A stretch of DNA of 33,386 nt from Desulfovibrio sp. (GTDB lineage Bacteria; Desulfobacterota; Desulfovibrionia; Desulfovibrionales; Desulfovibrionaceae), in NCBI GenBank assembly GCA_004796465.1, contig QZKZ01000028.1:1-33386 (forward strand). The letters are read 5' to 3'. Below, piece by piece: positions 2,083 to 31,012 of the stretch (its first letter is position 1; each line of letters opens with the position of its first letter). Both the position numbers and the translations under genes were made by a program. The notes under the pieces were generated by a model that was not told the DNA's origin, searched no databases, and saw only the letters and a program-made list of their open reading frames with translations.

Positions 2083-2169
2083 GCAACCTTCCCATTCAGT
2101 GATGATGGGCTGAAGAGTACTCTTCCACTCTTGACCAAAACGCGTGCTTGGCCCTAAATTGCGGTACCC

Positions 2170-12072: not shown

Positions 12073-13458
12073 CTAAGAGGCCGCATCCGCCTCGGGGTGC
12101 GCGGGCAAGGTGAAGAGAATAGTCGCGCCTTTGCCCGGCCCGGATTCGGCCCAGATTGTCCCGCCGTAGTGGGTCACGATGTTTCGGCAGATGGCCAGGC
12201 CCAACCCCGTACCCATGGGAGCGCTGCGCAGGGTGTCCGTGCCGCTGGCCCTGTGGAATTTGTCGAATACCCGCTGCAACTGGTCATCGGGTATACCAAC
12301 ACCCGTGTCCGCGACCCTGAACTCCACCAGGCCGTCCTCGCAGCGGGCCGACACGGTCACCGAGCCCTTGTCCGTGAACTTGAGCCCGTTGTCGATCAAG
12401 TTGACCAGCACTTGCTGGATCTTGTCCGGGTCCACGCGCACCATGGGCAAGTCAGGCTTCACATCCAACACCAAGTGCACGTCCTCCTTGTCCATGAAAA
12501 AGCCCTGCTTGCAGTCCACCGCGCGTTTGGCGAGCTTGGCAGGCTCCATGGGAACGTCGTGCCAGGAGGTCTTGCCCGATTCAATACGGCTCAAATCCAG
12601 GCAATCATTGATGAGCCGGGCCAAGCGATCGCCTTCCTCGGCAATGATGTCCAGGTTGGAAACCATGACTCCGGCCTTGGCCGTCAAGTAGGAGTCATGA
12701 ACCAAAGCGGGCTGGATGTTCTGGATCATGGACTTGCGCAAGAGCTTCACAAAACCGATGATCGAGGTCAGGGGAGTGCGGATTTCGTGGCTGACGCTGG
12801 CCATGAACGCGGCCATGGCGTCCTTGGCGGTCAGGGCCTGTTCCCGGGCTTCGCCCATGGACTCCTCGGCCATTTTGCGCTCAATGGCCAGGGACGCCTG
12901 CTCGGACACCGCGGTCATGAACTCCACGTCTTGTTCGGTAAAAGCGTCAGGGTCCTTGTAGTCCTGCACGGCCATGACGCCGATGACTTCATTGTGGGTG
13001 ATCAGGGGCGCGCCCAGCCAGACCTCGGCCAAGGGACCCACCACCGTGAGGTTCTGGCTCAGGCATTCCCGGCCCATGAAGAACAAAGGTTTGCCCCCGC
13101 GCATCACGCGCAGGCAGAGACTGTCCACGGCAGGATCGCTGATGTTGTCAATGGGATAGTCGTCGTCGTGTGCGTCCTGGAAATAGGGGAAAACCAGGCG
13201 GTCATTGGCCTTGTCTTTGAGGGCTATGAAGAAGTTGTCCGCGTTGATGCCCTTTTTGAGAATGGCGTGCAGAGCGGCAAAAAGTTCGTCAATGTCCCTG
13301 GTGGTAGCGACGGCGTTGGAAATGGCAAAGAGCACGGCAGTGAGGTCGCGGCTGGACTTGAGCCGCTGCACCGACTCCTCGAGCTCGGCGTTACGCTTGC
13401 GCAGCGCGTTCAGTTCCGTCTCGAACTCGCTGTTGTCCCGCAGGTCGTCTTGGGTCAC
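12073..13458 (-). CDS. Cytoplasmic GAF-domain sensor histidine kinase
   Basis: A 461-residue soluble kinase without membrane segments. A short coiled coil (about 12-38) precedes a GAF domain (about 38-193), which may bind a small ligand or cofactor. Next are HisKA with phosphoacceptor H224 in SHEIRTPL, and HATPase with N-box LVNLIDNG (351-358), G1 DTGVGIP (384-390) and G2 GTGLGL (416-421). The start is GTG 13458 with AAGGA seven bases upstream. No partner receiver adjoins it, so it is an orphan kinase unless it pairs with one of the receivers elsewhere in the window. A loop of about 15 residues (245-262) in HisKA is longer than usual. Confidence 0.9.
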   Translation of the reverse strand: MTQDDLRDNSEFETELNALRKRNAELEESVQRLKSSRDLTAVLFAISNAVATTRDIDELFAALHAILKKGINADNFFIALKDKANDRLVFPYFQDAHDDDYPIDNISDPAVDSLCLRVMRGGKPLFFMGRECLSQNLTVVGPLAEVWLGAPLITHNEVIGVMAVQDYKDPDAFTEQDVEFMTAVSEQASLAIERKMAEESMGEAREQALTAKDAMAAFMASVSHEIRTPLTSIIGFVKLLRKSMIQNIQPALVHDSYLTAKAGVMVSNLDIIAEEGDRLARLINDCLDLSRIESGKTSWHDVPMEPAKLAKRAVDCKQGFFMDKEDVHLVLDVKPDLPMVRVDPDKIQQVLVNLIDNGLKFTDKGSVTVSARCEDGLVEFRVADTGVGIPDDQLQRVFDKFHRASGTDTLRSAPMGTGLGLAICRNIVTHYGGTIWAESGPGKGATILFTLPAHPEADAAS

Positions 13459-13943: not shown

Positions 13944-14867
13944 GTGATCCCGCGTCCGCAACATCCCCACCTTTGGCTCGCGGCGCTGATTCTCGTCTTC
14001 TGCCTGGGCTGCGGCCAGGACGAAGAGCCCCTGGAAGTCGACTTGTCCCGGCGCCAGGAGCTTGCCGCGCAACGGGCCGATCACGACCTGACCTATGCCT
14101 ACCTGCCCCAGTATTCCCACACGGTGTCCTATGAACGGCACAGGCTGCTCGTGGCCTACCTCGCGGAGGCGACCGGCTTGGAGCTGCGCCAGGTATTCCC
14201 GGACACCTTTGAAGACCACATCCGCATGGTGGGCAACGGGGAAATCGACATCTCTTTTTCCAATCCCCTGGTGTACGTGCAGTTGGCTGAAAGCGGGGCC
14301 CAGGCTTTTGCCCGCGTCGTGGAGGAGTCAGGACCGGATTTCCGGGGGCAGATCATCTGCGCCCGCGACTCCCACGACCTGACCTCAATTGAGGATTGCC
14401 GGGGAACACGCTGGATAGCCGTGGACCCCTCTTCCGCTGGAGGGTATCTGTTCGCGGTAGGTCTGTTCCTGGACGCCGGGCTCACCCGGGAAGACTTCGC
14501 GGAAATCGCCTTTGCTCCCGGCCCGGGCGGCAAGCAGGAAAAGGTAGTGCTGGCCGTGGACGCCGGAACCTATGATATCGGGGCCATCCGCGAGGGCACC
14601 CTGGACGTGTTGGCCGAGACTCTGGACCTCTCGCGGATTCGCGTCCTTGCCGAGACCCCGGCCTATCCCGGCTGGGTCTACGCCGCCCGTCAGGGACTTG
14701 ACCCCGAGAGAGTGGAAACTTTGTCCCAAGCACTCCTGGCTTTGGACAGCGCGGATCCCGAACATGCGGCCATCCTGGAGGCCGCATGCTTCAACAGCGT
14801 CATTTCGGCCCGCGACTCCGACTATGACCCCATTCGCGAACTTCTTGCCCGGACCCGGGATTTCTGA
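13944..14867 (+). CDS. PhnD-like periplasmic-binding lipoprotein
   Basis: A 307-residue binding protein of the phosphate/phosphite/phosphonate (PhnD, PF12974-like) family. The signal peptide ends in a lipobox-like CLGC, so Cys23 should be lipidated. The domain starts at LTYAYLPQYS, and NGEIDISFSNPLVYVQL and DPSSAGGYLF match the usual anion-binding region. The start is GTG 13944. There is no permease or ATPase nearby; the stop overlaps the start of a membrane histidine kinase by one base. That arrangement, known for binding proteins that work as sensor subunits, suggests it presents its ligand to the kinase instead of importing it. The ligand is unknown. Confidence 0.83.
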   Translation: MIPRPQHPHLWLAALILVFCLGCGQDEEPLEVDLSRRQELAAQRADHDLTYAYLPQYSHTVSYERHRLLVAYLAEATGLELRQVFPDTFEDHIRMVGNGEIDISFSNPLVYVQLAESGAQAFARVVEESGPDFRGQIICARDSHDLTSIEDCRGTRWIAVDPSSAGGYLFAVGLFLDAGLTREDFAEIAFAPGPGGKQEKVVLAVDAGTYDIGAIREGTLDVLAETLDLSRIRVLAETPAYPGWVYAARQGLDPERVETLSQALLALDSADPEHAAILEAACFNSVISARDSDYDPIRELLARTRDF

Positions 14868-16582
14868 TGCTGATGCGTGTGTTCCGCAGGCTCGGTTTCA
14901 GGGCCAAGCTCGGTCTGGGCACAACAGCGATTGTCGTTGTCATGGCTTTGCTGTCCGCGATTCCAGCCAGCCATTTGGTCTCCAAGGCCCTGATCCGTGA
15001 AAACCGCCTGCGGGGGTCGTCCCTGTCGGCCAATCTGGCGGTCCAGGCCGTGGACTCCATGTTGGCCAGGGACTACCTGCGGCTCACCAACCTGGTGGAC
15101 GAGCCTGTTGCCGGAGACACGGGCGTCCTCTATTCCTTTCTCCTCGACTCCCAAGGCAATGTGCTGGTGCATAGCTTTGACGGTGGTTTTCCCACGGACC
15201 TCGTGGCCGTCAATCCAGCCGGGGATTCTGGCGTGAGTATCCGGCTTTTGGACGACCGGGGCAGGCTCATTGACGATTTCGCGGCTCCCGTGACCGTGGC
15301 GGGCTCCCGGTTGGGCACGGTGCGCATCGGTATTTCCCGGGACAACGTGCAGGCCTCCATCAACGAGTTGATCCTGGCCATTATCGGGCTTTCAGCCCTG
15401 GCGCTTGTCCTGGCCATAGGCGCGGCCACGGTGTTTGCCCGGCGCATGACCCTGCGCATCAAGCTGCTGACCAAAAGCGCCGAGGACATGGTGCGGGGCG
15501 AACTGGATAGGGTCACGGCTGTTCCCCCCAAGCGGGGTTGCCGGGAGATCATGGATTGCGAACGCCCGCAATGCCCGGCCTATGGGGAAGACGACCTGCG
15601 CTGCTGGTACGTGGCCGGGACCTTGTGCCCGGACTGCGAGGGGCTCGACGCCTCGGAAAAGTTGAATTCCTGCCGGATATGCAAGGTCTATCATGAGAAC
15701 GCCGGGGACGAGGTCCAGGAACTGGCCGAGACCTTTGACGTCATGGCCCGCTCCCTCAAGGCCCACATCCGGGACCTCACCGAGGCGCATGAGCGCTTGG
15801 TGGAACAGCAAGCCCAGCTCATCCAGTCCCAGAAGATGGAAGCCGTGGGCAAGCTCGCCGGCGGGGTGGCCCACGAGATCAACACCCCCCTGGGCGTGAT
15901 CCTGGGGTACGCCCAGTTGCTGCAAGAGGATTGTGAAGCCGAGAGCCAGATGGCCAGGGACATCGCGATCATTGAAAAGCAGGCCAATGTCTGCCGCAAG
16001 ATCGTGGCCGACTTGCTGGGGTTTTCCCGTATCGAGGAGAGCAGCCGCAAGGAGATGAGTTTCAACGACTCGATCCTGGAAGCAGCGGCCTTGGTGCGCA
16101 GCACCTTGACCATGGACCAGGTGCGGATTCAGGAAGACCTTGACGAGCGCAATCCGGTCATTGTCGGGGATGGAGACAAGCTCAAGCAGGTGTGGATCAA
16201 TTTCCTGAACAACGCCCGGGACGCCATGGAGGGCGGGGGCGCGGTACATATCCGTTCACGGCTCCTGCAAGAGGAAAACACCATGCGGGCTTGGTTCGCG
16301 GATACAGGGCCGGGCATGAGCCAGGAGATCATGGACCGGATCTTCGACCCCTTTTTCACCACCAAGCCCGTGGGCAAGGGAACAGGACTCGGCCTGTCGG
16401 TCTCTTTTGGAATCATCAAGGACCACGGGGGGACTATCCGGGCGGAAAGCCCGGTGAACGAGGACTTGGCCCAAAGCCTGGGCATGGACGGGACCAGGGG
16501 GCCGGGCACCGTGTTCATCGTGGACTTGCCTGTGCGGCCTCCGGATCATGACGAGAACGAGGACATGAACGAGACAACCTGA
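14867..16582 (+). CDS. Membrane sensor histidine kinase with cysteine cluster in HAMP
   Basis: A 571-residue kinase. Transmembrane helices at about 16-36 and 167-190 enclose a sensor domain of about 130 residues outside the cytoplasm. The first HAMP helix (191-214) is followed by an insert with eight cysteines (225, 231, 236, 247, 254, 257, 269, 272), and the second HAMP helix appears only at DEVQELAETFD (281-291). Then come a coiled coil, HisKA with H336 in GGVAHEINTPL, N-box NFLNNARDAM (445-454), G1 DTGPGM and G2 GKGTGLGLS (504-511). The ATG shares one base with the stop of the PhnD-like gene. Cysteine inserts of this kind recur in sulfate-reducer sensors and may bind metal or an iron-sulfur cluster; that role is an inference. 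Confidence 0.9.
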   Translation: MLMRVFRRLGFRAKLGLGTTAIVVVMALLSAIPASHLVSKALIRENRLRGSSLSANLAVQAVDSMLARDYLRLTNLVDEPVAGDTGVLYSFLLDSQGNVLVHSFDGGFPTDLVAVNPAGDSGVSIRLLDDRGRLIDDFAAPVTVAGSRLGTVRIGISRDNVQASINELILAIIGLSALALVLAIGAATVFARRMTLRIKLLTKSAEDMVRGELDRVTAVPPKRGCREIMDCERPQCPAYGEDDLRCWYVAGTLCPDCEGLDASEKLNSCRICKVYHENAGDEVQELAETFDVMARSLKAHIRDLTEAHERLVEQQAQLIQSQKMEAVGKLAGGVAHEINTPLGVILGYAQLLQEDCEAESQMARDIAIIEKQANVCRKIVADLLGFSRIEESSRKEMSFNDSILEAAALVRSTLTMDQVRIQEDLDERNPVIVGDGDKLKQVWINFLNNARDAMEGGGAVHIRSRLLQEENTMRAWFADTGPGMSQEIMDRIFDPFFTTKPVGKGTGLGLSVSFGIIKDHGGTIRAESPVNEDLAQSLGMDGTRGPGTVFIVDLPVRPPDHDENEDMNETT

Positions 16583-16598
16583 AGCAAGGAGCTATCCC

Positions 16599-16958
16599 AT
16601 GGCTTATATACTGGTCTTGGACGACGTGGAGGACGCCGGGCTGCTCATCAAAAGAATTCTGGAGCGGGCCGGGCATGAAGTCGCGGCCTTCACCGAGGAG
16701 GAGGACGCCATTACCCATGCCGAACTGAACATGGTGGACCTGGCGATCCTGGACATCAATCTCAAAAAGATGACCGGCGTGGAAGTCCTGGAGCAACTGA
16801 AAAAGCACTCGCCCAAGATGAAAGCCATCATGCTCACGGGTTACCCGACCATGGAGACGGCCAAGGACGCCCTGCACCTCGGCGCCAGCGACTACTGCGT
16901 CAAACCCATTGACAAGGAAGAGCTGGAAGAAAAGGTCGAGGAAGTCCTGGATATGTGA
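16599..16958 (+). CDS. Single-domain response regulator
   Basis: A 119-residue receiver with acidic pair D8-D9, phosphoacceptor D52 (AILDINL), switch Thr in MLTGYP and the conserved Lys in CVKPID. AAGGAG precedes the ATG, 16 bases after the kinase stop, so it belongs to the same operon and is the likely phosphorylation target. With no output domain it must act by protein contact or pass phosphate on to another protein. The MLTGYPTMETAKDALHLGASDYCVKP region resembles receivers of NtrC-type regulators, from which it may derive. Confidence 0.9.
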   Translation: MAYILVLDDVEDAGLLIKRILERAGHEVAAFTEEEDAITHAELNMVDLAILDINLKKMTGVEVLEQLKKHSPKMKAIMLTGYPTMETAKDALHLGASDYCVKPIDKEELEEKVEEVLDM

Positions 16959-17018
16959 GGTTTCTTTGGGAAGTCTTTACGTTACAGCCGTTGCCATTCA
17001 ACATAAAGGTAAGATTGA

Positions 17019-17861
17019 GTGAATAGGCTTATTGCGTATGTTGTTGTAATTGTAGTGGTATTGTTGCCTCGAATTTCATTCGCGGGTTTGGGTGTGGTGG
17101 AGCTTGTTGTGCCACCACAGAAATACGGGATATTTATTGCTATCGACGAGTACCCAGAGGAAATACTTACGTTGTATAATTGTAAAAGAGACGCTGATGT
17201 TGTCTCTGGGGCCCTGGGGTGTGATGAGTTTGAAATAACCAAGATATATGATGAAGAGGCAACATATGGGAATATAATGAGAGCACTGGAGGATCGTCTC
17301 AATTCATGCCACGAAGGAGATCTCCTTGTTCTGTTTTTTGCTTCGCACGGAGTCTTGCAGTATGACGACTTCTTCGTGCTTCCCTACTCGGATGGGTATG
17401 AGGCGGGCGTTGGTAGTGCTTCCATCATGCATAGCGCAATATCCGGAAGTTTGATCATGGATTTTGTCTCCTACTTTGTGAAGAAGGATGTCAACGTTAT
17501 TCTGTTCTTTGATACCTGCTACTCCGCAGGCATGAGCTTCGACATCTCAAACTTTTACAATCCCGGCTCAGAGTCGGGGTGCGCGCTCATCGTTTCGGCG
17601 TCGCCCCTGGAAGCCGCTACGGATTCGTCCCAGGATACTTTCAGTTTGCTATTTTCCCAAGGCCTGCTCGGAGAGGCGGACTTCAACAGCGACAAGGAAG
17701 TCACTATTCGGGAGGCCTTTGATTACGCATACGAGCACGTCAGGGAACGCTCAGATGGAATGCAGCACCCCGTATTCATCAGCACGCTTCCCAATACCCT
17801 CGTACTCAAATCCCTTGGAGAGAAAGAAGAACAGGGGATGGAGCCGCAAAGGGTGAGGTGA
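17019..17861 (+). CDS. Exported caspase-like cysteine peptidase (peptidase C14 family)
   Basis: A 280-residue protein. Residues 1-22 form a signal peptide (hydrophobic core followed by RISFA), so it should be exported. The mature part shows the caspase-fold core: the KYGIFIAIDEY strand, the catalytic His in FFASHG (H110) and the catalytic Cys in FFDTCYSAG (C167). An EF-hand-like DFNSDKEVTIREAF segment (221-234) follows, as in other bacterial C14 proteins. The start is GTG 17019 with a weak AGG site. The 5' half is much richer in A+T than the genes before it, a sign of transfer. Its substrate is unknown. It lies 60 bases after the receiver gene and could be read from the same transcript. Confidence 0.82.
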   Translation: MNRLIAYVVVIVVVLLPRISFAGLGVVELVVPPQKYGIFIAIDEYPEEILTLYNCKRDADVVSGALGCDEFEITKIYDEEATYGNIMRALEDRLNSCHEGDLLVLFFASHGVLQYDDFFVLPYSDGYEAGVGSASIMHSAISGSLIMDFVSYFVKKDVNVILFFDTCYSAGMSFDISNFYNPGSESGCALIVSASPLEAATDSSQDTFSLLFSQGLLGEADFNSDKEVTIREAFDYAYEHVRERSDGMQHPVFISTLPNTLVLKSLGEKEEQGMEPQRVR

Positions 17862-18965: not shown

Positions 18966-19367
18966 CTACCCCGCCCCTCGCTCGCTCAAGTACGCGGCGT
19001 ACTGCTTGTCCGTGCCCATGATGTGGTTGACGAGCCACTCCTTGAGAAAAGCAAGGACGTTTTCCGGGGTGTTGTCTTCGGCCTCGGGTTCAAACATAAG
19101 AATCATGAGGTTGGCCACGAACTCGTCGTGTTCGCTTATATGCTCTTCCACGTCGGGAAACGCGTGTTCGGTCAGAAGCGCTTCCTCGGTCTGAAAGTGT
19201 TCCTTGGCGTAATTGGACATTTTGGTGATGATCTCGTGGTACCGCACATCCCCTTGGTTGAGGAGAATCGCGGTTTCCAGCTCGTTCAGCATATTCAGCA
19301 GCTTTTTGTGTTGGGCGTTCAAAGTGGTGTTGTTCACCGACAAGTCTTCCGTCCATGATACAGGCAT
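18966..19367 (-). CDS. Bacteriohemerythrin 1
   Basis: A 133-residue single-domain hemerythrin, which binds O2 (or NO) reversibly at a di-iron centre in the cytoplasm. The likely ligands are all present: H20, H57, E61 (HFQTEE), H76 and H80 (HISEH), H115 and D120 (HIMGTD). GGAGG precedes the ATG. It lies downstream of a hairpin terminator and has a 197-base upstream gap, so it probably has its own promoter. Its 3' 132 bases are repeated at 17958-18089. It is a diverged paralog of the hemerythrin at 20188-20589. Roles known for the family include oxygen storage, sensing and detoxification. Confidence 0.92.
   Translation of the reverse strand: MPVSWTEDLSVNNTTLNAQHKKLLNMLNELETAILLNQGDVRYHEIITKMSNYAKEHFQTEEALLTEHAFPDVEEHISEHDEFVANLMILMFEPEAEDNTPENVLAFLKEWLVNHIMGTDKQYAAYLSERGAG
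18967..19098. repeat. Direct repeat, right copy, within hemerythrin 1
   Basis: The right copy of the 132-bp repeat, forming the 3' end of the intact hemerythrin gene. It shares the same stretch from TACCCCG at the stop-codon end to ACATA with the left copy. Confidence 0.9.
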
Positions 19368-19564: not shown

Positions 19565-20137
19565 TCAGTGGTAGTCGTTGCAGGTCTCGAATTGGTATTC
19601 CGTGCCCTGGAATTCAATGGTGTAGGTGTCGAAGATTTTGTTGCCCCTCAGCTCGTTGTATTCCTGCTCGTGCTCGTAGGTGTAGGCCCCCTGGAACACG
19701 GAAACCTCGCCCGCGGGCAGGGTGTTCGAGAGCAGGTCCTTGAGCAGCACCGTGTCGTCGCTGTACTCAACGGTCTCTTCCGAGTATTCGCCGCATTCGT
19801 AAAATTCCCCCGCATCGTTGAGGCAGTAGATCTTGGCTGGGGCGGCCAGTTTGTGGTGCGCCCGGATAAAACGCAGGTCGTGGCCGGAGAGGTTCTCAAT
19901 GGTGGTCTTGTAGAAATTGGAGGCGTAGTAGGCCTGCCAGTCCCAAGCAGTCCACGGCTCATAGGGCTCCATGCCCACGAATAGGGTCTGGAAGGTGAGG
20001 ATGGGGGTGCCGTCGGCGTCGTGGACGGTAACCAGCGCTTCGCAATCCATGTCCACGGCCATGTCTTGGGCCGAGGTCATGAGAGGAACAGCAAGGGCAA
20101 CGACAAGTAGCAGGGCGGCGAAGAGTGCGTTTTTCAT
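19565..20137 (-). CDS. Secreted protein of unknown function with four cysteines
   Basis: A 190-residue protein I do not recognise. Residues 1-24 form a clean signal peptide with a likely cut after TSAQ. The mature part is acidic and rich in Tyr and Glu, and it has four cysteines (near 32, 104, 113 and 186), enough for two disulfides. Its sequence suggests beta structure, and the segment TTIENLSGHDLRFIRAHHK resembles surface-exposed beta-domain folds, but this is weak. AGGAG lies seven bases before the ATG. It is the last gene of the sensory operon, 50 bases after hemerythrin 2, so it may be a periplasmic partner or effector of the system. Confidence 0.75.
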   Translation of the reverse strand: MKNALFAALLLVVALAVPLMTSAQDMAVDMDCEALVTVHDADGTPILTFQTLFVGMEPYEPWTAWDWQAYYASNFYKTTIENLSGHDLRFIRAHHKLAAPAKIYCLNDAGEFYECGEYSEETVEYSDDTVLLKDLLSNTLPAGEVSVFQGAYTYEHEQEYNELRGNKIFDTYTIEFQGTEYQFETCNDYH

Positions 20138-20187: not shown

Positions 20188-20589
20188 CTAAAACACCCCT
20201 CGTTCATTGAGAAAAGGACCGTACAGTTTGTCCGTGCCCGAGATGTGGTTCACGAGCCAATCCTTGAGAAAGGCAAGCACGCTTTCCGGGCTGCTGTGTT
20301 CGCTGTCCGGCTCGAACACGAGGTCCATGACCTTGACCGCGAAATCCTCGTGCTCGCGGACGTGATCGTCCAGACCCGGAAAGGAGTGCTTGGCCATGAG
20401 CTTTTCCTCGGTTTGGAAATGGACCTTGGCATAGTCCGACATCTTGGAGACGATTTCCTGGAGCTGCTCTTCCCCCTTGCCCAGACCGATGGCCTCTTCC
20501 AGTTCTCCGAGCATCGCCACCAGCTGTTTGTGCTCAGTGTCGATTCGGACGATGTTTACCGACAGGTCTTGTGTCCAGGATATGGGCAT
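20188..20589 (-). CDS. Bacteriohemerythrin 2
   Basis: A 133-residue single-domain hemerythrin with all seven likely di-iron ligands: H20, H57, E61, H76, H80, H115, D120. It is the same length as hemerythrin 1 and starts with the same MP.SWT.DLSVN pattern, so the two come from a gene duplication, now clearly diverged. GGAGG precedes the ATG. It lies 11 bases after the PocR-HisKA gene, inside the sensory operon. This suggests an oxygen- or NO-linked role for the pathway, either buffering the ligand or sensing it. Confidence 0.92.
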   Translation of the reverse strand: MPISWTQDLSVNIVRIDTEHKQLVAMLGELEEAIGLGKGEEQLQEIVSKMSDYAKVHFQTEEKLMAKHSFPGLDDHVREHEDFAVKVMDLVFEPDSEHSSPESVLAFLKDWLVNHISGTDKLYGPFLNERGVF

Positions 20590-20600
20590 GATTCCTCCGG

Positions 20601-21509
20601 TTAGTTTTGCGAGGCCTTGTCAAGGTCGATGATTTGCAAGTCGTCGGAGTACTCCGCCACTTCATAGGTCGTGATGTTCTGCACCTTGTTGATCAGCCTG
20701 GAAAGGGCGGTGACGTTGTCGCGCATGGACTGCAGGGCCTCGCCCACTTCCTTGTCGTTGTCCCCGAGCTGACCTTGCAGGAAATCCACGTCAAAGCTGA
20801 GGGTTTGCAGGGGCTGGCTGAATTCGTGGGCCGCGGCGCCGGCCATTTCGAGCACGCCTTGCAGCTTGCCCGCGCGGATCTTTTCCGCTTCGGCCTTTTT
20901 GCGCTCCTCCATCTCATGTTCGAGGCGCAGGGTTCGTTCCCGCACTTTGGCCTCGAGATGCAGGTTCAATTCGCTCAACTCTTTCTGGTTGAGTCCCATC
21001 TCCCCAAGCAGCGAGGCCAGGGCGGTCAAGAAATTCATGCCCAACTCCAGCCTCTCCCTGGACAGCACCGGCACGCGGTCCACGGCCTGGAGATATTCGG
21101 TTTCATCAAAGCCGAAAGTCGCGGCCTGCTTTCGGAAGAACTCCCTGTCCGGAGGGTCCAGGAAAAACTGGCCCGCAAACAAGTTGGCCACGTGCCGTTC
21201 GCCGATGATGATGGGCGCGGCCATGTCCACAAGCCCGTTCAGGCATTTGTAGCTGGCGTACCCTGTTTTTCCGTTGAGTTGCTTGGCCAACTCCGTGTCG
21301 CTTTGCACGCAACGTTCAAGGGTTTGGGGGTGCTTGCGGTGGAACTCCGTGCATATGCGCTGCCAGCCCACCTTGACCAAGACATTGCCCTCCACATCGG
21401 TGATGGATGGGGGTATGCCGGTCAGGCGGTAGAAACTTTCGGCCAGGCCCTGGATCTTGTCCAGGTCCACCAGGTCGCCAAAGGAGTACTCCATGGTTCG
21501 GGGCTGCAA
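20601..21509 (-). CDS. PocR-domain protein with HisKA domain but no kinase ATPase
   Basis: A 302-residue cytoplasmic protein. Residues about 12-170 match the PocR ligand-binding domain (PAS-like fold, known for small hydrocarbon or propanediol-type ligands), with cysteines at 53, 67 and 89. A coiled coil (175-215) leads into a HisKA-like helix pair with a candidate phosphoacceptor H228 in AAHEFSQPLQ. The protein ends about 75 residues later with no N, G1 or G2 box, so it cannot bind ATP as a normal kinase. I chose TTG 21509 as start because AAGGAG lies five to six bases upstream; the in-frame ATG at 21494 is too far from it. It may be phosphorylated by, or pair with, the large kinase of this operon. 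Confidence 0.82.
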   Translation of the reverse strand: MQPRTMEYSFGDLVDLDKIQGLAESFYRLTGIPPSITDVEGNVLVKVGWQRICTEFHRKHPQTLERCVQSDTELAKQLNGKTGYASYKCLNGLVDMAAPIIIGERHVANLFAGQFFLDPPDREFFRKQAATFGFDETEYLQAVDRVPVLSRERLELGMNFLTALASLLGEMGLNQKELSELNLHLEAKVRERTLRLEHEMEERKKAEAEKIRAGKLQGVLEMAGAAAHEFSQPLQTLSFDVDFLQGQLGDNDKEVGEALQSMRDNVTALSRLINKVQNITTYEVAEYSDDLQIIDLDKASQN

Positions 21510-21539: not shown

Positions 21540-22547
21540 CTATGTCCAGTTTTCCGCGAACCCCTCGTTCCGGAACATGTTCAGGCAGGCCTGCACCACG
21601 TCCCTGTCATAGAGCGTGCCCGCATTGTGCTCCACTTCATCCAGGGCGGCGTCAAGGCCCTTGCCCGGCCTATAAGGGCGGTCAAAGGCCATGGCCTCCA
21701 CCACGTCGGCCACGGCAATGATCTTGGCTTCGTCCAACAACTGGTCGCCGCGAAGGCCTTGGGGATAGCCGCTGCCGTCCAAACGTTCATGGTGCTGCAG
21801 CACGATCTCGCTGAGGGGCCAGGGAAACTCCACGGGAGACAGGATGTCCGAACCGACCTGGGAGTGGTTTTTGATGATGGAAAATTCAGCGCTGCTGAGT
21901 TTGCCCGGCTTGTTGAGGAACTCGGCCGGAACGTAGAGTTTGCCGATATCGTGCACCATGGCGGCCATGCGCAAGCCTTGGGTGCGGTCCCTGTCCATTC
22001 CCAGCCGCTGGGCCAGGACCGCGCTGAGATCGGCCACCCGGCGCTGGTGCCCGGCTGTATACGGGTCGCGCGCTTCCACCAGGGCGGAAAAGCCGAAGAT
22101 GATGCCTTCCATGGCCTTGCCGATCTTGCGCAGGTATTCCAGTTCCGAATGGGCGCGGAGCATGCGGTGCTGGTCCAGGCTCGCGTCCACGGCCCTTTTG
22201 ATGTCTTCTTCCTGGCAAGGTTTGGTGAGTATCCTGAAGACATAGCCATTGTTGACCGCGGCAATGGCGTTTTCCAGGTTGGCGTAACCCGTGAACAGGA
22301 TGCGCACCGAGTTGGGGGAGATATCCTTGGCCTTGGCCAAGAAAGTGATGCCGTCCATGTTCGGCATCTTCAGGTCCGAGACGATCACGGCAAAGGGCTC
22401 TTGCTGACCGATGAGCTCCAGGGCCTGTTCACCACTGTCCGCGGTGGTGATGGAATAATTGCTGCCCAGCAAGCGGCGGATGGACGCCAAAAAGTTGGGG
22501 TTGTCGTCCACGAACAGGATCCGGCGGTTGTTTTTGGAGTGCGGCAC
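21540..22547 (-). CDS. Response regulator with intact HD-GYP c-di-GMP phosphodiesterase domain
   Basis: A 335-residue RpfG-type protein. The receiver has D14-D15, phosphoacceptor D58 (VSDLKMP) and the Lys in LTKPC. The HD-GYP domain is complete: HDIGK (199-203), the KPGKL segment, NHSQVGSDIL and HHERLDGSGYP (252-262). It should break down the second messenger c-di-GMP when the receiver is phosphorylated. The GTG at 22547 has GAAAGGGG just upstream and clears the stop of the preceding gene; the TTG at 22571 would overlap it. It lies 30 bases before the PocR-HisKA gene. Confidence 0.88.
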   Translation of the reverse strand: MPHSKNNRRILFVDDNPNFLASIRRLLGSNYSITTADSGEQALELIGQQEPFAVIVSDLKMPNMDGITFLAKAKDISPNSVRILFTGYANLENAIAAVNNGYVFRILTKPCQEEDIKRAVDASLDQHRMLRAHSELEYLRKIGKAMEGIIFGFSALVEARDPYTAGHQRRVADLSAVLAQRLGMDRDRTQGLRMAAMVHDIGKLYVPAEFLNKPGKLSSAEFSIIKNHSQVGSDILSPVEFPWPLSEIVLQHHERLDGSGYPQGLRGDQLLDEAKIIAVADVVEAMAFDRPYRPGKGLDAALDEVEHNAGTLYDRDVVQACLNMFRNEGFAENWT

Positions 22548-22558
22548 GGGAGCCCCTT

Positions 22559-23722
22559 TCACAGTTTGCAATACGTGGTTTCGAGAACCTTGAAAGGTTG
22601 GTTCACGTTGTATTCTTGCGAGAAGCGCAGGAGATAGGCAATGGCCATTTCGCTCACCTCTTGGCCCTCGGCGAGGAGTTTGATCACCTCTTCCCCCTTC
22701 ATGGCGAAGATGTCCTCGGCCACGACCATGCCCGGCTCCAGGCCGTGCAGGTAAATCTTACGCTCGTTGAACGCCGGGCTTTCCCCCAGGGTGCTGAAGA
22801 GGTGGCCCAGCACGTCGGGATCATAGAGGTTGTCCTTGCCGGCCAAGGCGTTCAGGGCCTCACCTTGGGTCAGGCCCCAGGAGGTCAGCCGGTCGCAATC
22901 CAAGCAAACCTTGAGGATACGTGCGCCCAAGGGGATGTCATCCTTCTGCACATTGTCTTCAGGCACGCCGGTCCCGTTATAGCACTTTTCCTGGTAGGCG
23001 ATGATGCGGGCCACCTCCTCCAGGCGGGGGATCTTCTCGATGAACGACGCGGCAAGGGAAGGGTGCTCGTTGAACAACCGTTGTTCCCTGGGACCAAGGG
23101 TCTGCCCGGCAAGGTCCTTTTCCACGATGCTCTCGGGCAGGGTCACGAAGCCGATCATGGACAGCCTGGTGCCGGTGACCGCCTCCCAAAGATAGGGCGG
23201 GTCCATCTCCCGGCAGATATGGCGGACATAGGGGGTGATGCGGGATATGCGGCCGTAGACCGTGGGTTTGACCAGGGAGATGAGGTCGCCGAGCACGCCC
23301 ACGCTTTTTTGGATGGTCTTTTCCATGAGTTCCCGCCGGGCCGCGGCGATCTCATAGTACTGAATGCCGTCGACCAAGGCCTTGGCCATGGTCTTGGGCG
23401 GGCAAGGCTTTTGCAGCATCCTGAAGATATTGCCTTCGTTCACCGCTTCCAGGGCCACGTTGATCTCGGCATAGCCCGTGAGCAGGATGCGCACCGTGTC
23501 CGGAACACGTTTGTTCACTTCGGACAGGAACTCCACCCCGTTCATCCCCGGCATTTTATAATCGGAGATGATGATGCTGAAAGGCGCATCCTCTTTGATC
23601 AATTCCAGGGCGGAGTCTCCGTTTTCAGCAGTGGTCACGTCGAACCGCGCGGACAGGATTCTTTTGAAGGAAGAAAGCAGCCGGGTGTCGTCGTCAACTA
23701 TCAGGATTTTGTGTTTCAACAT
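22559..23722 (-). CDS. Response regulator with degenerate HD-GYP-like domain
   Basis: A 387-residue protein. The receiver is intact: D10-D11, phosphoacceptor D54 (ISDYKMP), Thr in LLTGYA and Lys in LQKPC. The C-terminal region aligns with HD-GYP, but the metal-binding residues are gone: LSMIGFVTLPESI (187-199) stands where HDIGK-IPDSI is expected, and AYQEKCYNGTGVP (242-254) where HHERxDGSGYP is expected. It probably lacks phosphodiesterase activity and may bind c-di-GMP or another protein. A C-terminal extension of about 90 residues follows the domain. AAGGAG precedes ATG 23722. Confidence 0.82.
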   Translation of the reverse strand: MLKHKILIVDDDTRLLSSFKRILSARFDVTTAENGDSALELIKEDAPFSIIISDYKMPGMNGVEFLSEVNKRVPDTVRILLTGYAEINVALEAVNEGNIFRMLQKPCPPKTMAKALVDGIQYYEIAAARRELMEKTIQKSVGVLGDLISLVKPTVYGRISRITPYVRHICREMDPPYLWEAVTGTRLSMIGFVTLPESIVEKDLAGQTLGPREQRLFNEHPSLAASFIEKIPRLEEVARIIAYQEKCYNGTGVPEDNVQKDDIPLGARILKVCLDCDRLTSWGLTQGEALNALAGKDNLYDPDVLGHLFSTLGESPAFNERKIYLHGLEPGMVVAEDIFAMKGEEVIKLLAEGQEVSEMAIAYLLRFSQEYNVNQPFKVLETTYCKL

Positions 23723-23734
23723 GAACCGTGCTCC

Positions 23735-24925
23735 TTACTGGCAGTGCTCCAAGACGTCTTTCCAATCCGGAAGGATGTTCTCAAGGGGAGAGGAGGCAAG
23801 TTTGTTTGCATACATTTCTTGCAAGGCATAGTGGGAATGGATGATGGTGTGCACATGGTCCAGGAGGTTGCCGAGGTGTATCTCAAACAGCGGGGCCGAG
23901 TCCTCGGGGATGGGCTGCAGGGAGTGGTGCAGGAACATGGCTTGGGTGACATTCGCGGGGATGCCCCACAGGCCCATCAAGTAGGCTCCCACATTGGCGT
24001 GGGATGTTCCGAACTCGCGTTCCTCCACCTCGTGCACGGTGTGTTTTCCCTCACCGACCACGGCGAGCACCCCGTTGTATTGCTCGGGAAAATGCGTGGC
24101 CAGCACGAGTTTGCCTATATCGTGTAAAAGCCCGGCCAGGAAAGCGTGGTCAGCCTCCTCCGCAGAGCGGCCCCGGGCAAGGGCCAGCCGTTTGCCCAGG
24201 CAGGCCACCCGTTGGCTGTGGTCCCACAGCATGGGGATGGAAAAGCCCGGCACCTTGGCCGGATCGTACACAGTAAAAGCCTGCACCGTCAGGACCAGGG
24301 ACCTGATCATGTTCAGCCCGAGCAGCATGACGGCTTGCTTGGGCTCGCTGACCTTGTTGCCGCCGTAATAGGGTGAGTTGACCAGGGCGATGAGCTTGGA
24401 ACTCAGGGCCACGTCTTGGGCAATGAGCGAGGCCACTGCGTCGATGGACGGTTCTTCCGAGTAGAGCTCCTGGGTGATGCGGTTGAAGGTCTCGGGTATG
24501 GCGGGCAAGGACTCGATGGTGGTGACGAGGTCCTTGAGCCCGTTGCCGAGTCCGTCGCCGTCTACCTTGGCGAGGTCCTCGATCAGGCCGACCAGCGTCT
24601 GGTAATCGCAGGGCTTCATGAGGAACTGGTGGGCCGAGAATACGGTCTGGCTCTGGAATTCACGGCTGGGCTGGCCGGTCAGCATGACGCGTTTCAAGCC
24701 GGGATGGGCGTGCTGCACTTTTTTGAGCAGTTGGTTGCCGTCCATGCCGGGCATGAGCAAGTCCGTGACAATGATGTGGCAGGGATTCTCCTTGAGAAAA
24801 GCGAGCGCTTCCTCGCCGCTGGTCACAAAGGTCATGTCCCATTCCTGGCGTTTGGGCGCCAGCATGCGCCGCAGGCCGCTCAGGACGAGCTTTTCGTCGT
24901 CAACGAACAGGATGCAGGTTTTCAC
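23735..24925 (-). CDS. Response regulator with HDOD output domain
   Basis: A 396-residue protein. The receiver has the acidic pair D9-D10, phosphoacceptor D55 (VTDLLMP) and a Lys in LMKPC. The HDOD domain (about 130-330) starts at IESLPAIPETFNRI, continues with ALSSKLIALVNSPYYGG and QAVMLLGLNMIRSLVL, and keeps an HDIGK motif at 268-272. HDOD domains are HD-related but usually bind or scaffold instead of hydrolysing nucleotides. The start is GTG 24925. It lies 24 bases after the large kinase gene and 12 bases before the degenerate HD-GYP gene, so it is part of the same operon. Confidence 0.87.
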   Translation of the reverse strand: MKTCILFVDDEKLVLSGLRRMLAPKRQEWDMTFVTSGEEALAFLKENPCHIIVTDLLMPGMDGNQLLKKVQHAHPGLKRVMLTGQPSREFQSQTVFSAHQFLMKPCDYQTLVGLIEDLAKVDGDGLGNGLKDLVTTIESLPAIPETFNRITQELYSEEPSIDAVASLIAQDVALSSKLIALVNSPYYGGNKVSEPKQAVMLLGLNMIRSLVLTVQAFTVYDPAKVPGFSIPMLWDHSQRVACLGKRLALARGRSAEEADHAFLAGLLHDIGKLVLATHFPEQYNGVLAVVGEGKHTVHEVEEREFGTSHANVGAYLMGLWGIPANVTQAMFLHHSLQPIPEDSAPLFEIHLGNLLDHVHTIIHSHYALQEMYANKLASSPLENILPDWKDVLEHCQ

Positions 24926-24949: not shown

Positions 24950-27900
24950 TTATTCCGTGTTTTCCAAGGGCAGGGTGATGGTGAATGTCGTGCCTACCCC
25001 TTCCTCGCTGTCAAGGGCAATATCCCCGCCGTGCTTGTCCCGGATCACGCTGTAGCTGATGGCCAAGCCTTGCCCCGATCCCTTGCCCACGTCCTTGGTG
25101 GTGAAAAAGGGATCAAAAACCTTGGTGCGGATTTCCTCGGGAATGCCCATGCCCGTGTCGGACACCTGTATTTGGGCTTTGTCGCCCAAGTGTTTGGTGG
25201 CAATGGTGATCGTTCCCCTGGTGTCGGGATTGGAGCCCAATTTTTCCTGGATGGTGTGGGCCGCGTTGATGATCAAGTTCAGAATGACTTGGTTGAGTTC
25301 AGCCTTGAAACCCGGAACAAGCGGGAGTGACTCGTCCAGGTCCATGTCCAGGTCTGCCGCGTATTTCCATTCATTGGTGGACACCGTGACCGTGCTGCGC
25401 ACGGCCTCGTTGAGGTCCAGGTAATCCCGGTCCTGCTTGCCGGGGTGGGCCAACTGCTTCACGGACTGGACGATTTTTGAGATGCGTTCCAGCCCTTCCA
25501 GGGAGTCGGAGAGCGCCTCGGGCAATTCCTCGGCCAGGAGGCTGTAATCGTATTTTCTCAGGAGAGGGCCGAACTCGGCGGGCATTCCCTCGGCGCTGTC
25601 TTCGTCTTCGGCGTGTTCAAGGTCGGCGCAGACCGTGATCAGGGCCAACAAGCCTTCCATGCTGTCTTGGAGAAAACGGATGTTGTTGTCCACGTACTGG
25701 ACCGGCGTATTGATTTCATGGGCAATGCCCGCAGCGAGCTGGCCGATGGATTCCAATTTTTGCGCTTGCAGGAGCTGGGCCTCCAACAGTTTGTGCTCGG
25801 TAATGTTGGTGACCACGCCAAGGGAACCGATGAAATCGCCCTCGTCATCGAACAGGGGCGTGGGGGAGACCAGGCAAAAAACCTTGTCGCCTTCCCTGTT
25901 GAGAAAGGTCAGTTCGTACTTCTCGGAGCCACCCTGCCTGCGGCTGGCAAGTTGTTCCAGCAAGTGGTCTGTTTCCGCGGGATCGATGAAATCCGCGCAC
26001 GCCTTGCCCAACACCTCGGAACGGGACAGGCCGAGCATCTTGCACAACTGGTGGTTGACGTAGGTGAAGGCCCCCTTGTCGTTGAGCATGAAGATGCCTT
26101 CCTGCATGGATTCCACCAGGGTCCGGTAGCGCTCCTCGCTTTCCGTGAACATTCTCCTGGCTTCCATGCCCTGGATGGCCAAGCCGTAATAGCGGGCGAG
26201 CTCTTCAACGCAGGCCAGGTCATTGGCGTTGAATCCATCCTCCTTGTTGGCCAGGGCAATGAGTCCGGCTCTTCTTTCGCCGAGCACCACGGGCACGGCA
26301 AGGAACTGTCTGATGGGAACATGCCCCTGGGGGAGCCCTGTAGACGCCGCGTGCTGTTCCGGCTCATTGGTGTAGAAGGAAAGGTTTTCATTAAGAGGAT
26401 ATCCCCACAGTCCGGGATACGTGGCTGCCTCGGGCGGTGAGATGCAGTCCTTGTCCACGGAGTCCATGGCGCACTGCTCGCCGAATATTGTATCAAAGGT
26501 ATGGGGCCGGAGCCTTTGGGTTTCCGGGTCAAGGGTGGCGCACAGGGCGTACTCCGCCCTGGTCAGCATGAGGGATTCCTCGTACAGGGCATTGGAGATT
26601 TCCTTGAGCGTGGTGTTTTGTCCCACAAGGAGTTCGTAGAGCCGGGACAGGGCGCCCTGGACCTGGAGATTCTTGCGCAGCCTGTGCTCGCGCTCTTTCC
26701 TGTCGGAAATGTCGAGGTGCACGCCCACCATGCGCAGGGGCGCTCCACTGGAGTCGCGCTCCACCATCTTGCCCACGGCAAGGATCCATTTCCAGCCGCC
26801 GGTCTTGGTTTGCAGGCGGAATTCGGATTTGTAGATCTGGTTGCCCTGTTTGGCCCGTTGGATGTCCGTGGCCGTGGTCTCCTTGTCCTCGGGATGGATC
26901 AGGTCCCAGAACGTGGATTCGTCGCTGGGCAATTCGCCCGGTTCATAGCCGATCATGGCCAGCAGGGTTTTGTCGAAGAGCATGCTGCCGGAAAGGAGGT
27001 TCCAGTCCCACATGCCCAGCTCCGACGCTGACAAGGCCATTTCGAGGCGCTCCCGGCTGACCACGAGCGCTTCCTCAACCTTTTTGCGGATGGTGATGTC
27101 TTGGCCGTAAATGTTGAGGTACCCGGAGTCGACCACCGGCGCGAAGGTCAGACCGAACTGGAAGTTGCCGGTGTCCAGGTCCATCAGGATGTTTCGCCCG
27201 GATTTCAGAGCGTTTAAACATAATTCAAGGATGTTGGGCGGCAGCCGCTCACCCATTTCGCATTTCCAGTGTCCCAAGAGCACGCGGCTGGCCTGGTTGG
27301 CGTAAAGAAGCATGCCCTCTGTATCCACGCGCATGACGGGATTGGGGTTTTCCGAAGGGAACCGCGCCAAGTCGCGGACTGCTTCTTCAGCCTTGCGGCG
27401 GTCCGTCACGTCCGTGATCACGGCGACGGACCCGCTGTGGTTCCCTTGTTCATCCACTAGAGGATTGGCGGAGATGACCGTTTGGACCACATGTCCCTCC
27501 TTGTGGAGGTACGCAAAGTCATAGGTCTCGGCCACTCCCTGTTTGCGGAGTTCAATATGCTGCTCGGAGAGTTCAACGACTTCATCCTCCATGAAGTTGA
27601 AGAGCTGCTTGCCGAGCATTTCCTCCGGTGCGTAGCCCAGCATGTCGGCCATGGCTTGGTTGACAAACACGGTGTTCGAATCCTTGTCGATTTCCCAGAT
27701 GCCTTCATGCAGGTTGACCAGCAAGGAGCGGTACTTCTTTTCGCTGGCTTCCAAGGCGTCTTGGGCCGCGATAAAGTCGTCGCGGGCCTGCTTCTCCCGG
27801 GTGATCTTGAACAAACCGTCCAGAAACAGGTTGAGCTGGAGCACGTCGAATTCCGTATAGGGCTGTTCCTTGTTGCCCACACCCAGGATGGCTTGGATTT

Positions 27901-30799
27901 TCCCATCAAGGTAGATGGGAACGCTCATGTGCCTGACCACGGGAAAGTGGCCTTCCGGGTATCCCTTTTTATCCGGTTCGTTCTGATAGTCGTTATGGAT
28001 CACGGGACCGCCCTGGCGGACACAGTCCGCCCAGATCCCCGCTTTTTCCATGGGGTAGTGCAGGCCGGTGGACACCTCGCATTCCTTGGCCACATCCCCG
28101 GACCAAATGTTGAGGTGGATGGTTTCCTGGTCCGAGTCGATGTAATGCAGATAGCCTGCCTTGCTTCCGGTCAGGCGCACGGCTTCTTCCAGGGCGTATG
28201 TGTTGATTTCCTCCACCCCGGCGTCCTGCATCTGGCTCAGCGTGAACAGAGTCTCGAACCGCTCGCGGTGCAGGTGGTCCTCGCTGATGGCCCGGTTCTG
28301 GCGAATGACCCGCCAGGCCTCGGACATGATGATGGAGACGAGCTTCACGTCCTCGTCAATGTAGTCCCCGGCCTTGTTGGCCACGCCCGCGAGCAGCACA
28401 ATCCGGTTGGCGTCGAAAATGGGAACCACGAGAAAGCCCTGCATGGGACCGCCCTTTTCAGCCCCTGAACCTTGCGGAACTTCCGAGCCGGAGCCATTGG
28501 AGATGACGGGCTCACGCCGTTCAAGGGCAACCTTCCACACTCCCTTGGGCGGGTATTCTCGAATACTGGGCTCCGGTGGTATGCCTCCCGAATTCATGCC
28601 TTGGTTCAGCCAGGCCCAGGGTGTCAGCATTTTTTCCTTGGGCCCCACCAGCATGACCGAGCCGAGTTCACTATGGGTCAGGTCGGCCACGGCGCTTAGG
28701 GCAAAATCCAAAATGGGCTGGTCAGGCTCGCCCGTCATCAGGCCGAGGCGCAGGAGGATTTCCAGCCGCTTTTCATTGTCCGCCATGACCTTTTCGTTTT
28801 CCACCCGCTCGGTCACGTCGGTGATCACGGCCAACATGTGGGGCGAGCCCCTGTAGTCCACAAGGGTTCCCCTTGCTTCAGTGGGAAAGGTTGTGCCGTC
28901 CTTGCGCATATCCAGGGTCTTGCCTTGGAATCTTCCGGTTTCGTGCAATTGAGCGACGTATTGATTGAACTTGCCCAGGTGGACGGGGTGGATGAGGTCG
29001 ACGGCAGCGAGGTCCATGATTTCCTCGGCCGTATACCCGTAAGTTTCGCAAGCCGCCCGATTGGCGTTGATCACGTTTCCGTCAAAGTCCGCGATGAACA
29101 GGCAATCGGTCACCGAGTCAAAGATGTCCCGGTACTCCTGCTCACTTTTCGCCAGGGCGATCTCCGAAGCCTTGCGGTCCGTGATGTCCACGAAGGTGCC
29201 CATGAACTGGAGGACTTGGCCTTGCTCGCCGAACTTGAAGGGGGTGTCCCTGGACAGGCACCAAATCCAGTTGCCGCTCTTGTGCAGGAACCTGTACTCC
29301 AGTTCGAAAACATCTCCCTCGGCAGCTTGGGACAGCTTGCCCATATGCTCGGACAGGGAGGGAAGGTCGTCCGGATGGAAAAGGTCGCTCATGTCCTCGT
29401 TGGACATGGCCTCGTAACTCGTGAGGTCATAGCCCAGGATGCTGGTGTAGCCCGTATTCACGTACACGTTTCGCTCTGCTTCCAGGTCGAAAACATACAG
29501 GCCCGTGGGGGAGGACGTTTCCAGCATTTTGAGGAAGTACTCGCTTTCCTTGAGTGCGGTTTCAGCCAACACCCGCGCCGTGACGTCCAGACCCACGGCC
29601 TGGTATTTCACGATTTGTCCCTCGGGGGTGAAAAAGGCCCGGTTGGTCCACTCTTGGTAGAGCTTTTCGTTGCTGGTCAGGACCTCATGGACAATAGAGT
29701 TGCTGCTGTTTTCCGGAGTCAGGACCAGGTAGCCGTTTTTGACCCGCTCCTTATCCTCTTCAGGGACAAAATCCAAAAAACGTTTCCCCACAAGCTTCTC
29801 AACGCTTGAACCAAAAAACTCGCAATACATGGCGTTGACATAGGTCAAGGTGGAGTCGGGCTGGAATTCGCAGACCATGGCCGGAAGGTCTTCGGATAGA
29901 GCTCGGTAGCGCTCTTCGCTCAGCTTGAGGGCATGCTCGGCTTTTTTGCGTTCCGTGATCTCCATGACGGTTGCGCCGAGCGCGAATATTTCTCCATCCG
30001 GGGTGCGGATGGGGTAATAGTCGGCCAGACAGTTGATCGTCATGCCCGGTTTTGCAGCTGATTCTCCTTCGACTTCCTGTCCGAGCACAGAGAGTCCGGT
30101 TTGCATAATGCTTCGGAGAACAGGTTCAACTTCATGGCTGATTTGCGGCAGAACCTCATGGAGAGTGTGGCCGATATGCTCTTTAATGGATTTTCCATTG
30201 ATTTCCGCGAGCTTCTGGTTGACGCGGACATAACGCAGGTCAGTGTCGAAAACCGCCATGCCGATGGGCGCGGTCTGGTAGATGTGGTCCAGTTCGGCAA
30301 GCTGCTTTTCGATCTGCCCGCGGCCGACCAAAAGACCTTGTTCAGCAGCCGCCTTTTCCGTGACGTCGTGGCAGGCGATGAGCACAACCGCGTTGCCCAG
30401 GCTGATCTCCTTGATCGTGATGTCCAGGACAACAGGCTTGCCCGACTTGTGGTTCGTCTTCCAGTCGGGAAAGTGGATTTCCTTTTCACGGCGGATTTGG
30501 TCCAAGTCGTACAGCCCCGGGCCAAAAAGGCTTTCCACGGTTCCCATGGCCGCGACCTCGGTGGTGTCGTAGCCAAAAATCTGGCTGCAGTACTTGCAGA
30601 CATAGTCGAACCTTGCCTGCGCATCAGCCGTGAACACCGCGCCGGACAAGGAAGAAAGCAGCAGTTCGTTCAGCTCTTCTTTTTCCGAAGCCAAACCGTC
30701 CTTGGACTCGAGCAATGCCGAATACCTCTTTTCGACGTCGCGCAATCGCTCGACCTCGGCCGCCAACTCCCCCCTTGTCATCGTCTCAGGTTGCTTCAT
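24950..30799 (-). CDS. Very large cytoplasmic multi-PAS/GAF sensor histidine kinase
   Basis: A kinase of about 1,949 residues, first gene of the sensory operon, with no membrane segment. By repeated linker motifs such as DITDRK I read PAS domains at about 48-150, 166-286, 297-410, 420-540 and 553-665; GAF at 680-835 and 847-1003; PAS at 1019-1133, 1140-1238 and 1250-1365; GAF at 1380-1545; PAS at 1552-1668. Then come HisKA with H1694 (GIAHEINTPVQ) and HATPase with N-box LNLIINAAH, G1 DTGMGIP and G2 GKGSGQGL. An acidic insert lies between HisKA and the ATPase (about 1725-1775). No receiver is attached. I chose ATG 30799, with GGGGGCAGG upstream, over TTG 30811. It can integrate many signals, and the receivers next to it are its likely targets. 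Confidence 0.88.
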   Translation of the reverse strand: MKQPETMTRGELAAEVERLRDVEKRYSALLESKDGLASEKEELNELLLSSLSGAVFTADAQARFDYVCKYCSQIFGYDTTEVAAMGTVESLFGPGLYDLDQIRREKEIHFPDWKTNHKSGKPVVLDITIKEISLGNAVVLIACHDVTEKAAAEQGLLVGRGQIEKQLAELDHIYQTAPIGMAVFDTDLRYVRVNQKLAEINGKSIKEHIGHTLHEVLPQISHEVEPVLRSIMQTGLSVLGQEVEGESAAKPGMTINCLADYYPIRTPDGEIFALGATVMEITERKKAEHALKLSEERYRALSEDLPAMVCEFQPDSTLTYVNAMYCEFFGSSVEKLVGKRFLDFVPEEDKERVKNGYLVLTPENSSNSIVHEVLTSNEKLYQEWTNRAFFTPEGQIVKYQAVGLDVTARVLAETALKESEYFLKMLETSSPTGLYVFDLEAERNVYVNTGYTSILGYDLTSYEAMSNEDMSDLFHPDDLPSLSEHMGKLSQAAEGDVFELEYRFLHKSGNWIWCLSRDTPFKFGEQGQVLQFMGTFVDITDRKASEIALAKSEQEYRDIFDSVTDCLFIADFDGNVINANRAACETYGYTAEEIMDLAAVDLIHPVHLGKFNQYVAQLHETGRFQGKTLDMRKDGTTFPTEARGTLVDYRGSPHMLAVITDVTERVENEKVMADNEKRLEILLRLGLMTGEPDQPILDFALSAVADLTHSELGSVMLVGPKEKMLTPWAWLNQGMNSGGIPPEPSIREYPPKGVWKVALERREPVISNGSGSEVPQGSGAEKGGPMQGFLVVPIFDANRIVLLAGVANKAGDYIDEDVKLVSIIMSEAWRVIRQNRAISEDHLHRERFETLFTLSQMQDAGVEEINTYALEEAVRLTGSKAGYLHYIDSDQETIHLNIWSGDVAKECEVSTGLHYPMEKAGIWADCVRQGGPVIHNDYQNEPDKKGYPEGHFPVVRHMSVPIYLDGKIQAILGVGNKEQPYTEFDVLQLNLFLDGLFKITREKQARDDFIAAQDALEASEKKYRSLLVNLHEGIWEIDKDSNTVFVNQAMADMLGYAPEEMLGKQLFNFMEDEVVELSEQHIELRKQGVAETYDFAYLHKEGHVVQTVISANPLVDEQGNHSGSVAVITDVTDRRKAEEAVRDLARFPSENPNPVMRVDTEGMLLYANQASRVLLGHWKCEMGERLPPNILELCLNALKSGRNILMDLDTGNFQFGLTFAPVVDSGYLNIYGQDITIRKKVEEALVVSRERLEMALSASELGMWDWNLLSGSMLFDKTLLAMIGYEPGELPSDESTFWDLIHPEDKETTATDIQRAKQGNQIYKSEFRLQTKTGGWKWILAVGKMVERDSSGAPLRMVGVHLDISDRKEREHRLRKNLQVQGALSRLYELLVGQNTTLKEISNALYEESLMLTRAEYALCATLDPETQRLRPHTFDTIFGEQCAMDSVDKDCISPPEAATYPGLWGYPLNENLSFYTNEPEQHAASTGLPQGHVPIRQFLAVPVVLGERRAGLIALANKEDGFNANDLACVEELARYYGLAIQGMEARRMFTESEERYRTLVESMQEGIFMLNDKGAFTYVNHQLCKMLGLSRSEVLGKACADFIDPAETDHLLEQLASRRQGGSEKYELTFLNREGDKVFCLVSPTPLFDDEGDFIGSLGVVTNITEHKLLEAQLLQAQKLESIGQLAAGIAHEINTPVQYVDNNIRFLQDSMEGLLALITVCADLEHAEDEDSAEGMPAEFGPLLRKYDYSLLAEELPEALSDSLEGLERISKIVQSVKQLAHPGKQDRDYLDLNEAVRSTVTVSTNEWKYAADLDMDLDESLPLVPGFKAELNQVILNLIINAAHTIQEKLGSNPDTRGTITIATKHLGDKAQIQVSDTGMGIPEEIRTKVFDPFFTTKDVGKGSGQGLAISYSVIRDKHGGDIALDSEEGVGTTFTITLPLENTE

Positions 30800-31012
30800 G
30801 CCTGCCCCCAATACCGGATACTGGAAAAACTTTGCGGAGAACTAGCCTTAACGTAACAAGCGCTATGGGTTTTGTACAAGAAAATCGTGCTTATCCGCGA
30901 TACGTATCCCGAGAGCGAAGCAAGCATCCCCTGCAAATCGCCGGGGCCGTCACAAAGGTATTGTCTCATGAGTTTTGTTGGGCATACAAAGAGCTGAACC
31001 GGAGGCAACGTC

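Follow-up and report, generated by a model that had tools for sequence, protein, structure and literature searches.

Proteins that join a sensor to a HisKA domain without a HATPase domain were described in Archaea by Galperin in 2005 and 2018, REC-PAS-HisKA proteins among them (PMC1183210, PMC5847659). Known from Archaeoglobus and Methanomicrobia, they have been called "nonenzymatic HK-like proteins" or, in P2CS, "possible incomplete histidine kinase"; phosphoacceptor or phosphatase roles were suggested, and none of these archaeal proteins had been studied (PMC1183210, PMC5847659). Searching the literature for experiments on HisKA proteins that lack the ATPase, we found censuses only. The archaeal proteins have N-terminal sensors, a C-terminal HisKA domain with its His, no HATPase domain and in some cases an N-terminal REC domain, an architecture shared by the PocR-HisKA protein that we report here (PMC5847659). 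Compared by description, the latter differs in belonging to the Desulfobacterota, in its PocR sensor and in a defined C-terminal beta-hairpin motif. A second comparison is offered by Spo0B and ChpT, in which a DHp-type bundle without kinase activity shuttles phosphate, and which have in common with the PocR-HisKA protein a DHp-type hairpin, a His and the lack of autokinase activity (PMC3433190). In ChpT an ATPase-like C-terminal domain persists that has lost ATP binding, whereas the PocR-HisKA protein has a short hairpin cap only. Spo0B likewise retains an ATPase-like C-terminal domain, and we know of no sensor domain in either Spo0B or ChpT. Finally, the FixL-type HisKA domains (HELNQPL; 4gcz, 8a7f) are among the nearest solved relatives by sequence and fold, but FixL-type kinases continue into an ATPase domain and their sequence likeness to our module stops at the end of alpha2. 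As far as the literature shows, the defined C-terminal cap, the spread in the phylum, the pairing with REC domains and the PocR version are new.

The gene lies in a stretch of 33,386 nucleotides of a Desulfovibrio sp. genome, hereafter the window, whose source assembly comprises 434 contigs; the gene neighbourhood is that of a single genome, its genus having no second genome in the set searched. The features on which the argument turns are the following.

20601..21509, minus strand: PocR - coiled coil - HisKA-only gene, 302 aa, with a TTG start or an ATG at 21494
20994..21476, minus strand: PocR sensor domain, residues 12-172 (Pfam PF10114, E 8e-53)
20679..20849, minus strand: HisKA helical hairpin (DHp), residues 221-277 (Pfam PF00512, E 4e-5; AF2 model)
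20826..20828, minus strand: codon of the predicted phospho-acceptor H228, invariant in 41/41 homologs
20610..20666, minus strand: C-terminal conserved motif, residues 282-300 (YEVAEYSDDLQIIDLDKAS), a predicted beta-hairpin cap (AF2, conservation)
20188..20589, minus strand: hemerythrin-like gene, downstream, same direction, 11 bp gap (Pfam PF01814)
21540..22571, minus strand: REC-HD-GYP gene, upstream, 30 bp gap, candidate partner (Pfam, motif alignment)
22559..23722, minus strand: REC + degenerate HD domain protein, candidate partner (Pfam, motif alignment)
23735..24925, minus strand: REC-HDOD protein, candidate partner (Pfam)
24950..30811, minus strand: giant PAS/GAF/HisKA/HATPase kinase, heading the cluster, possible phosphate source (Pfam)

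The genes are thus read in the order giant kinase, REC-HDOD, REC-HD, REC-HD-GYP and PocR-HisKA. The TTG start of the last is preceded by AAGGAG, with an in-frame ATG five codons in, and its TAA stop is followed by GGAGG and the hemerythrin ATG at 20589. Pfam finds PocR and HisKA in the 302-aa protein and nothing else convincing, the HisKA match (24.0 bits) falling slightly below the curated cut-off of 26.9 bits. The initial annotation, made from the letters of the window, had noticed the HisKA-like motif AAHEFSQPLQ and a protein ending before the ATPase domain with a normal stop and tight spacing to the next gene, and these observations hold: the His of the motif is residue 228, and 74 residues separate it from the protein end.

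Several neighbours deserve mention in their own right. The catalytic residues of HD-GYP are present in the upstream REC-HD-GYP protein by motif alignment. In the REC-HD protein (22559-23722, minus strand) the HD-GYP active-site residues are replaced (HHERLDG by QEKCYNG, HD by SM), with similar replacements in seven relatives; its family, found in about half of the 199 related genomes and often next to an intact REC-HD-GYP, is by these residues a conserved pseudo-phosphodiesterase. The giant kinase (24950-30811, minus strand) is 1953 aa long and includes three GAF domains and numerous PAS domains. Between two hemerythrin-like proteins of 133 aa that resemble each other (18966-19367 and 20188-20589, minus strand) lies a 190-aa protein (19565-20137) that has no Pfam match and apparently carries a signal peptide. 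On the plus strand (14867-17861), a Cache-HAMP kinase and a single REC gene are directly followed by a caspase-like (Peptidase_C14) gene.

No Pfam match to HATPase_c, with its N, G1 and G2 boxes, follows HisKA in the 302-aa protein. When every six-frame ORF of the window was scanned with the HATPase profile, the matches were confined to its three known kinases (12076-13458, 14867-16579 and 24953-30811), which leaves no ATPase domain nearby that a frameshift might conceal. We then have to ask where the homologs end, a comparison that the initial annotation had proposed. With the last 81 residues of the protein as query, 199 genomes of the host family yielded close relatives in two, which belong to another genus; these relatives are both HisKA-only proteins of the PAS-like kind. 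One such PAS-like module, searched in turn against 395 genomes of the phylum, matched in 114, the weakest matches possibly being ordinary kinases. The ATPase domain is absent from all 41 module proteins of the long-locus set (40 longer loci and the window) and from 53 of the 54 module homologs in shorter loci, the sole exception being a weakly matched ordinary kinase; the two sets overlap and therefore are not independent counts. This is the opposite of homologs that all carry the ATPase, which the initial annotation had named as a ground for giving up its reading.

The modules share a C-terminal motif, about Y-x4-Y-x(5-7)-IIDIDKAS (Y-x4-Y-x7-IDLDKAS), and all 41 long-locus modules terminate within 27 residues of it. 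Across the 30 loci that were fetched, module proteins stop 0-27 residues past the motif, locus L061 excepted, and an ATPase never comes next. The L061 protein (1117-2571, minus strand) has a PAS-like stretch after its HisKA-only module, the only internal copy of the module that we saw. In a class-level profile search, ordinary kinases cover mostly positions 2 to about 60 and modules cover 1-84; the PocR-HisKA protein falls with the HisKA-only family, covering positions 1-84 including Y-x(5-7)-ID, with no ATPase after them. Two Geobacterales proteins (L203, L204) have a REC-HisKA-only layout and end in Y..MIDL or Y..MIDV, without the counterparts of K275 and Y282; they apparently form a distant branch of the HisKA-only family. 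The observation is thereby confirmed as real: the gene encodes an ATPase-less HisKA protein and is no accident of truncation.

H228, P233, Y287 and D295 are invariant in the 41 modules, and nearly so are K275 (39 of 41), E229, A223 and Y282 (38 each), and Q232 and I293 (37 each). AlphaFold (AF2), run as a monomer and given 41 sequences for the final 120 residues, predicts a DHp hairpin of helices 184-247 and 253-277 at pLDDT 95, followed by strands 284-288 and 291-294 and a short helix 296-299, that is, a beta-hairpin capping the HisKA hairpin. As a control, the HisKA region of the window kinase 14867-16582 was cut to the same length and modelled with 23 sequences: no strands appeared, the second helix ran on and the linker dropped to pLDDT 68. 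With the module model as query, Foldseek returned kinase DHp domains as the closest solved folds, FixL chimeras first, all at E-values above 0.01, a level to be expected of helical hairpins so short; Pfam, AF2 and Foldseek thus all find the helical hairpin with phospho-acceptor His by which sensor kinases are recognised. The sequence likeness to solved DHp domains generally stops near the end of the second helix and, since the control formed no strands either, the modelled beta-hairpin cap appears to be specific to the HisKA-only family.

The sensors that precede the module are varied: PAS families in 25 of the 41 proteins, REC in eight, GAF in two and PocR in one, namely the window's own, and L135 is a bare 106-aa module with no sensor. 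The PocR domain and coiled coil (residues 6-210) are 57% identical to those of a PocR-PAS-HisKA-HATPase kinase that the same genome encodes (C35, L002), which differs from the window protein by its PAS domain, its full ATPase domain and a HisKA of another kind (RHDLKAPL). The window module clusters in the tree with the PAS-HisKA-only proteins of genomes G044 and G002 (support 99/96) and not with kinases. Derivation by truncation of the local PocR kinase was therefore rejected, the HisKA of that paralog being unrelated and the module grouping with HisKA-only proteins. The simplest history, judged from these sequences, looks like the joining of a PocR front end to a pre-existing HisKA-only module, making the protein a mosaic. 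The module-versus-kinase tree requires three changes against 19 in shuffles; built on only 62 columns, it permits the family to have arisen once, no more.

An association with REC domains recurs in the family. Eight of the 41 modules are fused to REC, the acceptor Asp being present in all eight, and nine have a same-strand REC gene within 150 bp. A small single REC gene adjoins seven of the 41 modules versus nine of the 609 remaining genes in these loci (Fisher p 1e-5), and 26 of the 41 have neither a REC fusion nor an adjacent REC gene. Among the best 30 homologs of one neighbouring CheY-like protein, six again adjoin a module, the module gene coming first (six genomes, four families); in two members of this CheY-like family, the gene close upstream is instead that of an ordinary kinase.

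Starting from the architecture, the conserved ending, the predicted cap and this association, it is tempting to hypothesize that the PocR-HisKA protein is a ligand-controlled, ATPase-free histidine module whose H228 exchanges phosphate with REC domains, a reading that we hold tentatively and place a little short of an even chance. The PocR domain would sense a small molecule, as its family suggests, and the coiled coil would relay the signal to the HisKA hairpin; we infer that the latter dimerises into a four-helix bundle bearing H228, which the dedicated C-terminal beta-hairpin would close where the ATPase domain would otherwise stand. Having no ATPase domain, the protein cannot phosphorylate itself. 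H228 might instead take phosphate from one phospho-REC and hand it to another, like Spo0B or an HPt protein, in a putative direction of transfer; the three upstream REC-HD proteins, supplied by the giant kinase, would be the nearest candidate partners. The phosphotransfer role put forward in the initial annotation is compatible with the invariant H228 (41/41), with E229 (38/41) and with the REC association, and its alternative of a ligand-controlled inhibitor is possible, so that as a whole that earlier reading is partly supported.

The same hairpin might serve as a ligand-gated phosphatase, the HisKA bundle binding the phospho-RECs of the cluster and speeding their dephosphorylation, so that the signal drains away upon a change of PocR ligand. 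Galperin proposed such a role for archaeal ATPase-less HisKA proteins (PMC5847659), and the DHp domains of EnvZ and NtrB suffice for phosphatase activity without the ATPase domain (PMC3510030). The REC association of the modules also agrees with it, although it would look the same for a phosphatase, for a REC-binding scaffold or for phosphotransfer. In tested HisKA enzymes, however, the acid at +1 from the His serves the kinase reaction and Thr or Asn at +4 is needed for the phosphatase, which the change N375Q abolished in CrdS (PMC3510030). In the module family, position +4 is Gln in 37 of 41 (Gln232 in the window protein) and Thr or Asn in four of 41, and it is instead the Glu at +1, required for kinase but not for phosphatase activity, that is conserved. 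Phosphotransfer is therefore favoured over a phosphatase, which we regard as rather unlikely. The Gln at +4 is evidence against it that is not decisive, because some FixL-type kinases, which share HELNQPL, are phosphatases.

Less probable still, and in our view clearly unlikely, is half of a split or heterodimeric kinase, the module pairing with a full kinase to be trans-phosphorylated or to block it in the style of RetS-GacS, a DHp pairing with a solved precedent (7n0e). E229, which kinases need to phosphorylate the His, is retained, and kinase genes adjoin modules in L113, L133, L202 and L203; on plasmid pHRM2a of Desulforapulum autotrophicum, a PAS S-box gene precedes a REC-module gene annotated "response regulator". 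Against this, a kinase gene directly adjoins only two of the 41 module genes, and the giant kinase has another type of HisKA, which scores only 13.6 bits against the module profile. Relatives L190 and L192 moreover keep kinase, REC-HDOD, REC-HD (the pseudo-HD protein) and REC-HD-GYP in the same order with no HisKA-only gene; an obligate pairing with the giant kinase is rejected by this synteny, and the heterodimer that the initial annotation had envisaged lacks support as a conserved function. A passive scaffold, whose helices merely dimerise PocR or hold REC proteins without phosphate chemistry, would agree with the protein-protein interaction that Galperin lists as the likely role of REC-PAS-HisKA proteins (PMC5847659), but the invariant His and Pro and near-invariant Glu are residues of H-box chemistry and not generic dimer contacts; since the His-Glu pair is needless for pure dimerisation and yet was kept without the ATPase, phosphate chemistry is favoured and we deem a scaffold quite improbable. 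That the gene is a decaying or artefactual kinase, shortened by mutation, frameshift or an error in the 434-contig assembly, is next to negligible, since homologs in many families terminate at the same motif, which rules out the sequencing error considered in the initial annotation, no coding trace of an ATPase lies downstream and the module falls among HisKA-only modules rather than kinases.

Genes of this kind usually receive the annotation histidine kinase or response regulator, or are set aside as truncated; given their conserved ending, predicted cap and recurring REC partners, they form a family open to testing. The pairs with CheY-like proteins (e.g., G551, G301, G555) and the L135 module are small enough for phosphotransfer assays. 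The PocR-HisKA protein belongs to a widespread family and would probably give phosphate to neighbouring regulators or take it from them. That sensor-driven, ATPase-free histidine phosphotransferases make up a widespread class, with a beta-hairpin in place of the ATPase domain, is conceivable and somewhat doubtful. If true, they would join kinases and HPt proteins as another kind of two-component protein, through which ligands, redox signals or phospho-REC inputs tap phosphorelays without the use of ATP; if the modules transfer or drain phosphate, they would add a further class of node to the two-component wiring diagrams of these bacteria.
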